Shown here piece after piece: positions 17,664 to 46,800 of a stretch of DNA of 64,000 nucleotides (within the stretch, counting starts at the first letter, position 1; the number at the start of each line of letters is the position of its first letter). This DNA comes from Acheta domesticus (taxonomy: Eukaryota; Arthropoda; Insecta; Orthoptera; Gryllidae). Position numbers and translations under genes: made by a program. The notes under the pieces were generated by a model. It saw only the letters and a list, made by a program, of their open reading frames with translations. It was not told the DNA's origin and did no database searches. The DNA is taken from positions 33,484,213-33,548,212 of the forward strand of contig JAHLJT010004567.1 of assembly GCA_031308135.1 (NCBI GenBank), given 5' to 3'.

Positions 17664-18856
17664 CATCGCCGAGTTCACCTTTGTCCTTCTCTTCTAAACG
17701 CGATGGCACTGGAGCGGTTTCGTATTTCCAACCGGGCGCAATGCAGCAAATCGTGCACTCATTTTGGGCATGTCCGGGGTAAGGGACCTTGAAGACGCGC
17801 GGAGTCGTGGCAAAGTTGCGCGCCACTACCGCCGCGGACGCTGCAATCGAACGTGCTCGCTCCTCACGCGAGCGCCTGCAAGTTGGCGTCACGTGATCGC
17901 CTGTCGAGACAGCTGCCGGACGCGCCGCGCAGACGGAAGCTTCAGTTGAAATGACATTAAACCTATTAAAAAACTCTCCGGATGAGGACTTTGTTCATTT
18001 GCGGAAAATGTAATGGCGCTTTAAGTTTAGTAAAATACAGAAAATGAACATGATTTACGAAATGAATATATTTTTTGCCCCATTTTGCTCCTCAGCAGGT
18101 GATTAAAATGTCTTTGTTGGATTTTAACCTCAAACATTTTGTTATGATCTTTGTTTGTGTTGGAAATGAAGTCAAAGTTATATTATTTTTATTAGTTGCC
18201 TATGGCAGCAAAAATGCTGCTGAACGAAGACCACACAAAATTAATTTTATGAAAAATATCTCTCAGAAGTTCAGGAACAAGAACAAAAAAATACTCTCGT
18301 GTATGACCAGCCGTATGGGTCGGTCGTTGGGAATTCGTGGGAAAGTGGCTCTTTTCTTGAAATTTTGGAAAAATAAACACAAAGCCGTTACCACAGAACA
18401 ACATTTAATTAAATAAGCTTTGATGGCAAAACACAAAAATACAGTATGACAGCAACATTGGCCATAGAATGAAAAAAAACAAGCAAAAACCCTTGATCAT
18501 TACCAAAAAAATGCATTGGAAAGGATAATTAACTGCAAAATATGAATTTCAAATATGCATTAATGAAAATCCTAACAATGTCTTCTGAGACAAAAAAATT
18601 AACTGAAATTCAACAAAGTGAATAAAAAGGTATCTCTAGGGAGATGAGTGCGCACGAAATTACTTTACAGGAAAATATCACCAGTATTTTAGGCGTAAAA
18701 TGCCGTGGTGCTTACAGTTTACAGATATTGCAGTCAATTATCCATCCACATATACTGCATAATCGCTCTGTAGTAGATTCTTTGCAAAGAATTCACTGGA
18801 ATTACCATAGAATATATCACATACAATTGGAATGAATACATATTTTTTTAAAAGAA
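17664..18856. other. No gene seen
   Basis: A short GC-rich patch (17690-17940), then AT-rich sequence. A 113-codon open frame at 18075-18416 has no recognisable motif and is treated as chance. Confidence 0.5.
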
Positions 18857-19326
18857 AACACGAAATGTTATCAAAAGTTGCATGAAACAAACTATACGTG
18901 TTCATTTATCACAATGGAAATGAATAAATAGTTTTAAGAACACGAAATGTTACCACAAATTGCATGAAACAAACTACACGTGTTCATTTATTACAATTGA
19001 AATGAATAAATAGTTTTAAGAACACGAAATGTTACCACAAATTGCATGAAACACACTGCACGTGTTCATTTCTTACAATTGAAATGAATAAATAGTTTTG
19101 AGAACACTAAATTTTACCACAAATTGCATGAAACGCACTACACGTGTTCATTTATTACAATTGAAATGAATAAATAGTTTTAAGAACACTAAATGTTACC
19201 ACAAATTGCATGAAACGCACTACACGTGTTCATTTATTACAATGGAAATGAATGAATAGTTTTAAGAACACGAAATGTTACCACAAATTGCATGAAACAA
19301 ACTCCATGTGTTCAATTATCATAAGT
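18857..19326. repeat. 82-bp tandem satellite, about 6 units
   Basis: Units begin with AACACGAAATGTTACCAC-type sequence at 18857, 18939, 19021, 19103, 19185 and 19267, an exact 82-bp period. Each unit contains CACGTGTTCATTTA and GAAATGAATAAATAG. The last unit runs straight into the palindrome at 19327. Units differ at only a few positions. Confidence 0.95.
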
Positions 19327-19419
19327 AATATCACGAGAAGTACTGTGCTAGCCGGTAAATTCACGACTCGCGTAGCGAGGAGTGAATTTACCGGCTAGCA
19401 CAGCACTTCGAGTGATATT
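19327..19419. repeat. Near-perfect 38-bp-arm palindrome
   Basis: Left arm 19327-19364 and right arm 19382-19419 are inverted copies (about 35 of 38 positions pair), with the perfect inner part CTGTGCTAGCCGGTAAATTC. The 17-base loop contains its own small hairpin, CTCGC-GTA-GCGAG. This would form a stable cruciform. It abuts the 82-bp satellite and may be the terminus of the element that carries the satellite. Confidence 0.92.
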
Positions 19420-41836: not shown

Positions 41837-42105
41837 AAACTTCAAAAGATCCAACAGGATGATTTCGGACAGTCAAATTTATTACATTAAAAACGTATTG
41901 TGACGTTTCGAAGGCTGATGCACCTTCATCTTCAGGCCAATACACATATATTCGAATAACTAAAATTATAAAAAAGTACACATTAGTACTTAATTAATAG
42001 TAAAATTGGATAACAAAGAGGAAATCAACCTGTGCCACAATAAGTTTTTAATGTAATAAATTTGACTGTCCGAAATCTTTTTGTTGGATCTTTTTGAAGT
42101 TTTAC
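41837..42105. mobile_element. Penelope-like terminal structure (inverted repeats)
   Basis: Arms 41837-41900 and 42040-42105 are inverted copies of about 65 bp (shared TCGGACAGTCAAATTTATTA). Inside, the minus strand carries CTGAAGATGAAGG, a loop, then CCTTCGAAACGTC (41902-41937). This resembles the hammerhead-ribozyme-derived motif found in the terminal repeats of Penelope-like retroelements. Here the core has an extra U and stem I does not pair, so it looks inactive. Inverted partial terminal repeats are known from Penelope-like elements. No reverse transcriptase is present. Confidence 0.5.
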
Positions 42106-46003: not shown

Positions 46004-46359
46004 GCACTGTCAGAAATTTCAGCGTTACTTTAATGAAATGTACATTAAAGTACTTATCATGAACATACATTAAATTTAATATACACATGTACATCAGGAT
46101 GCAAGAGTCATAGCTCTACGGTCATATCTGGTAGGAATGAATGAATTATCTTGATGGACTGGTGATTATGAATATACGATATGAATGATGACAGGCAGGT
46201 AAAACGGGAGAATATCTACATTAAATTTACACTGATTTCAACTTATGAATTAAATTTAATGTGCAAATATATTAAGCTCTTATTAATGTACAAGGTTACA
46301 ATAAGTTTCAAGAACATAACATTGCTCAACATTAAATGTAGTGACATTTCTGACAGTGC
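46004..46359. mobile_element. Small MITE with 14-bp terminal inverted repeats
   Basis: GCACTGTCAGAAAT at 46004-46017 and its exact inverse ATTTCTGACAGTGC at 46346-46359 enclose 328 bp of AT-rich sequence. A target-site duplication is not obvious, so the superfamily is open. There is no coding capacity. It lies 43 bp from the target-site duplication of the hammerhead element. Confidence 0.65.
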
Positions 46360-46416
46360 GCCTTTCCTCACCCTCCCTGGATATGCCGGAAAACTTCTAG
46401 CTTTATGATTAACTCG

Positions 46417-46786
46417 TAGAACATGCTTCACGGCTAGCTGCCGTTGAGTAGTGTTCTTGCACGGGGTAGTCGACGAGGTTCAAGTCGACGTCTGAAGAGT
46501 CGAACACAAGACGAAACTGTCTAGGAAAGTCGGTCTCCTGGCCTATATCCACTCGGTATAAGACCAGTGGATGTAGAAGAGGGTGCTACTTTCAACTGCT
46601 TTCATCTTTTCTCATTCGAGAAAAAGGGTATAGAGGCGTGGTGCCGCATCCACCTACCGCACAAGTGTGCGCGCAGGGTGAACCTAGCACGGAGGCACAA
46701 AGGATGAGCAGTTAGGGTAGTAAAAGCGTTTCGTCCTAGTTCAGGACTCATCAGACAGGCTTCTAGCCTGTGACGTTGTATGAACA
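46417..46786 (-). mobile_element. 370-bp retroelement carrying a hammerhead ribozyme
   Basis: Flanked by an exact 14-bp direct repeat TTATGATTAACTCG (46403-46416 and 46787-46800), a length typical of target-primed or endonuclease-mediated retroposition. In minus-strand orientation the element starts 15 bases upstream of a complete hammerhead ribozyme core (46726-46777) and ends with GAAGCATGTTCTA. The sequence GAACAT (plus strand) occurs at both ends (46419-46424 and 46782-46787), so the copy is slightly more than one unit of about 363 bp, as expected if the template was circular or tandem. There is no open frame of note, no poly-A tail and no tRNA-like box, so it is non-autonomous. Candidate relationships are a retrozyme-like element or a terminal repeat mobilised by a Penelope-like element. 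Confidence 0.8.
46726..46777 (-). ncRNA. Hammerhead ribozyme, type III arrangement
   Basis: All conserved core positions are present on the minus strand. The cleavage triplet is GUC (cut between 46772 and 46771). Stem I is ACAGGC/GCCUGU closed by the loop UAGAA (6 of 6 pairs). Then come CUGAUGA (46754-46748), stem II GUCC/GGAC with loop UGAACUA, and GAAA (46732-46729). Stem III is short: A-U, C-G, G-C, using ACG after the GAA and CGU before the cut, with only three pairs, so a dimer or tandem transcript may be needed for efficient cleavage. Self-cleavage in cis is the established role of this fold. Activity of this copy is predicted and not shown. Confidence 0.88.
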
Positions 46787-46800
46787 TTATGATTAACTCG

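Follow-up and report, generated by a model that had tools for sequence, protein, structure and literature searches.

The window, the whole 64,000-nucleotide stretch of Acheta domesticus DNA that was analyzed, contains a 370-bp insert (46417 to 46786) bounded by a perfect 14-bp target-site duplication (TSD), TTATGATTAACTCG, with its left copy at 46403 to 46416, its right copy at 46787 to 46800, and 384 bp from start to start. The insert differs from its surroundings in GC content (0.49 to 0.50, versus 0.34 to 0.40 in the flanks), has copies elsewhere in the genome, and is a rearranged partial copy of a repeat family with a unit of approximately 515 nt. BLAST against a reference unit, U (locus L013, positions 848 to 1363; positions within it are prefixed U, and its two polarities are U+ and U-), assigned 46416 to 46471 on the plus strand to U4 to U59, in reversed orientation with respect to the remainder of the insert, and 46473 to 46791 on the minus strand to U475 to U154. 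The outer end of the first segment is the recurrent terminus U4; that of the second is the recurrent terminus near U158, and the duplication places the true end at 46786. None of 10 window open reading frames gave a Pfam match above the curated cutoff.

Other repeats occur in the window. Adjoining the hammerhead element is a 356-bp AT-rich, MITE-like insertion (46004 to 46359) with 18-nt terminal inverted repeats that are 94% complementary, GCACTGTCAGAAATTTCA. A 59-nt inverted repeat (93%; arms 133 nt apart) at 41844 to 42094 is a probable MITE, and a repeat with an 82-bp period at 18772 to 19413 has weak MIR4376 matches on both strands at its end (33.6 and 27 bits, versus a gathering score of 60).

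Hammerhead motifs in the window copy

Hammerhead A, a type III motif with an intact core, occupies 46723 to 46779 of the minus strand. Read from 46779 to 46723, it is ACAAC GUC^ACAGGC UAGAA GCCUGU CUGAUGA GUCC UGAACUA GGAC GAAA CGCUU, in which GUC spans 46774 to 46772 and cleavage is predicted between 46772 and 46771. A strict type III finder recovered every element that an earlier note on this DNA had described: the GUC, CUGAUGA, and GAAA elements, perfectly paired stems I (6 bp, 5-nt loop) and II (4 bp, 7-nt loop), and a stem III of 3 bp (I6/L5, II4/L7, III3). The cut that the earlier note had predicted agrees with the position of GUC, and its placement of a type III core within an insect mobile element also held. 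With cmscan, the motif matched Rfam model RF00008 at 38.0 bits (E values of 2.1e-6 for 1.1 kb and 1.2e-4 for the window), and gave no match at the gathering score of 48.5. The earlier note had proposed Rfam hammerhead models as a check and had named, beforehand, a score below threshold as refuting the motif; the match to the model stands, but the score is indeed below threshold. On sequence grounds, the hammerhead at 46779 to 46723 is confirmed as real.

In isolation, the window motif retained stems I and II at its minimum free energy (MFE) but paired CGUC with GAUG and formed no stem III, and 2 of 200 shuffles folded equally well. The window copy of hammerhead A may therefore be weak. The weak stem III is confined to few copies: most of 43 aligned A motifs read ACAGCGUC, and hammerhead A of L013 folds with 5 bp.

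The plus strand carries a second, broken hammerhead, B, at 46490 to 46527. Its core, CTGAAGA/GAAA, and stem II are intact (core pattern at 46492 to 46517), but stems I and III were lost at the inversion junction, where U4 to U59 meets the inverted U475 to U154. It matched RF00163 at 24.3 bits (cmscan), under the gathering score of 34. This copy was rejected as a functional ribozyme, as the sequences in place of stems I and III come from across the junction and 154 of 200 shuffles folded equally well. The B core has exact matches in the same genome, with intact relatives, e.g., L013 1272 to 1329 on the minus strand.

Integration of a single viroid, with the 14-nt repeat representing the overlap of a 384-nt circle, was considered and rejected, given hundreds of genome copies, many with TSDs of other sequence. 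The gain in folding from the 14-nt repeat is weak and confined to a single strand (equally good shuffles: 9 of 300 for the plus strand, 288 of 300 for the minus strand).

A dispersed family with hammerheads on both strands

The insert, used as a query against its own genome (2.33-Gb assembly), returned 611 first-look candidates, and 40 of these were scored. At up to two mismatches, the 27-base core A occurred 394 times and core B 194 times, with no occurrence of either reversed control. The main sample of 81 loci comprised the window copy, 20 loci from insert-query matches, and 60 of the 100 exact A cores listed; 60 loci were therefore picked for an exact A core and 21 were not. A B-selected set contained 40 further loci, all with exact B cores among those listed (the count of 194 being at two mismatches or fewer). 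One COX1 sequence of this assembly (L090), translated with the invertebrate mitochondrial code, shares 98% identity with a Gryllidae cluster, which places the host among the true crickets. The same assembly contains 97 COX1 matches, many near full length and with mitochondrial TGA codons, inside contigs of 100 to 300 Mb, indicating a large load of mitochondrial insertions. A COX1-family gene with a stop-free 650-amino-acid open frame (L089, G000:C2070:686466-687809) probably lies on a bacterial contig from a symbiont or contaminant.

Unit U is 516 nt and the unit of L021 is 514 nt, with GC contents of about 0.50 to 0.53. Both are noncoding, with at least three stops in every frame, and endless frames of the zetavirus type were sought and were absent. 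ARAGORN found no tRNA-related head in five loci, a result that is compatible with a decayed or non-tRNA promoter. Searches of viral contigs with exact cores A and B, of prokaryote genome contigs with exact core A, and of phage records by blastn yielded no relatives, these collections being unlikely to contain cricket RNA.

Hammerhead A lies on U+ and hammerhead B on U-, with cleavage predicted from the position of GUC after U173 and after U476, respectively. Hammerhead B of L013 reads GUC^ACGCGG UUCAAGU CCGCGU CUGAAGA GUC GAACACAA GAC GAAA CUGAC; its stem I (perfect) and stem III are each 6 bp long. Variation at position 7 of the hammerhead core is described as permissible (PMC2837043). Both L013 motifs have hammerhead-shaped MFE structures, with 3 (A) and 6 (B) of 200 shuffles as good, and the strict finder identified all core positions and both 6-bp stems, I and III, in hammerhead B of L013, L017, L032, and L074. 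Over the 81 loci, it found A intact in 37, B in 10, and both in 5 (7, 5, and 2, respectively, among the 21 loci chosen on grounds other than core A). It gave no match in 5.1 Mb of shuffled loci.

In Rfam scans of 20 sources, made up of 19 copies and the window locus, RF00008 was found on the A strand of 16 sources and on the B strand of 5 (L012, L013, L017, L019, and L027; E values up to 1), with RF00163 on the B strand of 2 more (L001 and L026; E values up to 1). Both strands were matched in 7 of 20 scanned B-selected loci (L096, L104, L105, L106, L112, L114, and L116). The type III model RF00008 was the best model in 24 of 26 matches from the first 20 sources and in 21 of 25 from the B-selected 20, the remainder being RF00163. 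The type I hammerhead of metazoan non-long-terminal-repeat (non-LTR) retrozymes is thus not the form found here. Across the window locus and the 39 copies scanned, no hammerhead match reached an Rfam gathering threshold, the best score being 45.3 bits. Judged from sequence, relatives of the insert carry putative type III ribozymes on both strands, with B broken in the window copy. The animal hosts of hammerheads listed in the earlier note (Penelope-like elements, SINEs, and satellites) therefore gave an incomplete context, as the presence of another type III hammerhead, on the strand opposite A, points instead to the build of a viroid-like RNA.

Chance occurrence of a hammerhead-like sequence in an unrelated repeat would be compatible with scores under the Rfam gathering threshold and with the MFE structure of the isolated window motif, which is not a hammerhead. 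Against this stand 394 and 194 near-exact cores versus none in reversed controls (counts that alone indicate a repeat family), the lack of strict matches in shuffled sequence, and the presence of two independent complete motifs, and we consider a chance origin the least credible of the explanations weighed here.

The predicted folds place the two cores opposite each other. The insert folds better than 100 of 100 shuffles on both strands (z scores of -5.8 and -5.0), as does the L013 unit (-4.2 and -4.3). Core opposition was assessed in natural stretches, of which 12 were tried, 6 were dropped for changed motifs, and 6 were folded (323 to 336 nt, both cores unchanged). The A core (25 nt) paired with the B core in all six, forming 22 pairs when folded as U+ and 19 when folded as U-. 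The MFE structure of the whole L013 unit also has 22 A-B core pairs in U+; in U-, the MFE structure has none, versus 19 in the centroid and an ensemble expectation of 18.3. The rod-like structure is limited to the center of the unit, and the remainder is branched. Opposed hammerhead domains have been called a typical feature of several viroids and viroid-like RNAs (PMC7461866). Covariation was no greater than in shuffles (12 double changes in 112 rows, versus a mean of 12.4 in shuffles; paired cells, 0.908 versus 0.907), and the genomic copies therefore provide no evidence of selection on the fold. The evidence for function of the two predicted ribozymes is their intact design across copies, not covariation.

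Ends of the copies and mode of insertion

Flanking direct repeats of at least 9 bp were found at 25 of the 81 loci, versus 3 of 400 mismatched-locus pairs, and exact repeats of at least 11 bp were found at 22 loci, versus none of 400 pairs. The TSDs range from 9 to 15 bp, with modes of 13 and 14 bp, other loci having no clear repeat at this stringency; repeats of at least 9 bp flank 7 of 40 loci in the B-selected set. The TSDs are therefore longer than 4 bp, as in metazoan non-LTR retrozymes, and their clustering at 13 to 14 bp differs from the 4-bp TSDs of plant LTR retrozymes, which also have type III hammerheads (PMC7229834).

End positions were analyzed in 77 loci, after removal of 4 near-identical duplicates from the 81. 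In terms of U-, 94 of 107 3'-type ends fall at U4 (44 ends) or near U158 (50 ends), where approximately 5% are expected. None of the 45 5'-type ends does so, these being scattered over U38 to U515. The 21 loci chosen on grounds other than core A gave the same pattern (29 of 33 3'-type and 0 of 9 5'-type ends at U4/U158), and 36 of 49 3'-type ends lay in the U4/U158 zones in the B-selected set, in which selection favors certain ends. Only U- appears as a template in this pattern, which gives no sign of U+. The two recurrent 3' ends were compared for a common recognition module, and their likeness was not significant (760 of 2,000 shuffles as good).

Inverted composites, such as the window copy, were found at 30 of 77 loci; in 20 of these, each kind of terminus is present once. 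The copies at L013 and L021 overrun one full unit by about 35 to 42 nt, and the template was therefore circular or multimeric, the overrun being compatible with either. Seven of the 45 5' ends cluster at U463 to U468 (all at U463 to U467), as do 6 of 31 in the B-selected set, which favors ends beyond U456. A gap of 7 to 12 nt separates this cluster from the cleavage site predicted for B (U476/475), and a stub of the other terminus is present on 3 of the 21 segment ends that lie at U457 to U470. The cluster is at most suggestive of the 5' end of a self-cleaved U- RNA.

A fixed 3' end, a variable 5' end, a TSD, and inversions are the features of a LINE-mobilized retrocopy, and all were found. 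The TSDs, the two recurrent 3' ends on one polarity, the variable 5' ends, and the inversions mark the copies as apparent products of target-primed reverse transcription. Over U174 to U470, 58 rows differ by a mean of 10.0%, and by 5.5% from the column majority, in a nearly star-like pattern with nine sites at which a second base reaches at least 20%. We take this to reflect, in all probability, a burst of copying from a narrow source and the subsequent neutral decay of the copies.

Within 700 nt, the 81 loci contain two direct and seven inverted A-A pairs, and the DNA copies seen could therefore rarely release unit RNA unaided. The earlier note had taken the weak stem III as a sign of tandem or dimeric transcripts; the copies do not support this, as stem III has 5 bp in many relatives and same-orientation neighbors are rare. 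One locus, L016, is a direct tandem of two A hammerheads, 330 nt apart and with part of the unit missing, possibly representing a shorter variant of an RNA circle. No tandem arrays occurred in the fetched stretches of 1 to 10 kb. Tandem satellite DNA with cut transcripts would have a precedent in the same insect order, the hammerhead-bearing pDo500 satellite described from Dolichopoda cave crickets (PMC2837043). The cricket copies are instead dispersed, often TSD flanked, truncated, and inverted, with no array in these stretches, and a satellite origin is very improbable. As an orthopteran repeat with a hammerhead, pDo500 resembles the present family but differs in being satellite DNA, a comparison made by description alone (PMC2837043).

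Origin of the copies and relation to known systems

The best reading of the family is an endogenous viroid-like element of an animal, with putative ribozymes on two strands and a likeness to carnation-type retroviroids or two-strand retrozymes. The window would then hold an old, rearranged retrocopy of a noncoding RNA of approximately 515 nt with a type III hammerhead in each polarity, the cores of which would face each other within a self-complementary rod, as in viroid-like RNAs with symmetric rolling-circle replication. On paper, the family would work like such an RNA. We infer that multimers of each polarity would be present in vivo and would cut themselves by ribozyme A (U+) or ribozyme B (U-), with the monomers closing into circles, and that U- RNA would occasionally be taken by a LINE-type reverse transcriptase of the host. 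Target-primed synthesis would begin at either of two set positions on U- (U4 and approximately U158) and would stop at variable points, producing 5' truncation, or would be primed from both target strands, generating inverted composites such as the window copy. Insertion by either route would leave TSDs of approximately 13 to 14 bp. That the copies derive from a viroid-like RNA using both ribozymes is probable. Points that count against it are the lack of covariation above the shuffle level, the absence of A-B core pairs from the U- MFE structure of the whole L013 unit, the lack of any sign of U+ as a template, hammerhead scores under the Rfam gathering thresholds, the small share of loci in which B or both ribozymes are strictly intact, the lack of exact core matches in viral contigs, and a unit larger than viroids.

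The main competing explanation is a non-LTR retrozyme or SINE-like element born in the genome, with a master DNA locus, a single ribozyme, and mobilization by LINEs, in which the second hammerhead would be a by-product of the self-complementary fold and would have had no role at any time. Such an origin fits the hundreds of copies with SINE-like insertion, the near star-like divergence from a narrow source, the restriction of templates seen to U-, and the lack of covariation; animal non-LTR retrozymes with TSDs of more than 4 bp are known (PMC7229834), and retrozymes are reported to span 300 to 1,116 nt (PMC8781251). It accounts less well for the complete hammerhead B in L013, L017, L032, and L074, whose persistence in the source without use would be unlikely. 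Furthermore, same-orientation dimers, which are needed for release of monomers from DNA, make up only two of nine close A-A pairs in the 81 loci, and known animal retrozymes are described as type I ribozymes in tandem repeats (PMC7229834). We regard a genome-born element as unlikely, albeit far less so than a satellite or chance origin.

Derivation from a viroid-like RNA using both ribozymes may be extended to an animal viroid-like replicon, i.e., a protein-free circular RNA of approximately 515 nt that would be copied from RNA to RNA by a symmetric rolling circle in the cricket germ line, by means of its two hammerheads, and endogenized by LINEs hundreds of times, the DNA copies being dead ends rather than the source. 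This extension is tentative and, on balance, somewhat less likely than not.

The family suggests that a viroid-like circular RNA has been repeatedly copied into animal DNA. It is debated whether viroids are retrozymes that escaped or, conversely, retrozymes are viroids that became integrated, and an animal nuclear family with opposed ribozymes and hundreds of insertions would be a fossil record of such an RNA. It also provides a defined sequence to seek in living crickets. The literature search, with subscription papers and preprints outside its scope, found no animal genomic family with hammerheads on both strands, and no example in the literature examined, as far as its sources were accessible, combined viroid-like architecture with LINE-type dispersal.

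Several known systems share part of this design. Type III hammerheads are described as occurring mostly in plants and in the circular RNAs that infect them, and insect elements with type III hammerheads have been mentioned as "in preparation" (PMC7761336). Epsilonviruses and motifs in termite and dipteran genomes resemble the cricket family in having insect type III hammerheads, in both polarities in the RNA agent (PMC7936874). The HDV-like hammerheads have longer helices I and II in HDV-like genomes, and the termite genomic motifs are described as isolated (PMC7936874), whereas the cricket family has a compact 6-bp stem I, no gene, and the whole unit in many copies. The delta-antigen gene and extended helix I/II of epsilonviruses are not found in it, the unit being approximately 515 nt, with stops in every frame and compact stems. 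Zetaviruses are predicted circular RNAs of 324 to 789 nt with hammerheads in both orientations and a rod-like structure, as in the cricket family, but up to 90% have lengths in multiples of three, with a sense and an antisense frame (PMC11721086), in contrast to the cricket units with at least three stops per frame. Fig hammerhead viroid-like RNA and similar viroid-like satellite RNAs share a hammerhead in each polarity, a rod, and opposed domains (PMC7461866); the fig agent is an RNA of 357 to 360 nt in plants, whereas the cricket family consists of DNA copies only, in an animal, with a larger unit.

The unit of approximately 515 nt exceeds the 246 to 450 nt given for viroids and falls inside the range of retrozymes, whose RNAs have also been reported in both polarities (PMC8781251). 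Metazoan non-LTR retrozymes, like the cricket family, are noncoding hammerhead elements with many copies and TSDs of more than 4 bp, but are described as having type I hammerheads in tandem repeats of 150 to 450 bp, with GC contents below 50% (PMC7229834). The cricket family, in contrast, has type III hammerheads on both strands in mostly single, dispersed copies of approximately 515 nt, with GC contents of about 0.50 to 0.53.

Hammerheads occur in both strands of carnation small viroid-like RNA (CarSV), a retroviroid-like plant element, and the CarSV-1 study reportedly describes complete hammerhead sequences. Like the RNA proposed for the cricket family, CarSV is small and noncoding, contains hammerheads, and has counterparts in the DNA of its host genome (PMC7761336, PMC9608096), and the carnation element has been singled out as an exceptional case of viroid-like RNA integration (PMC7761336). 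The two differ in that CarSV has a plant host and a DNA form also integrated in a pararetrovirus (PMC9608096), whereas the cricket family, known here as DNA alone, has an insect host, a unit of approximately 515 nt, and hundreds of TSD-flanked copies.
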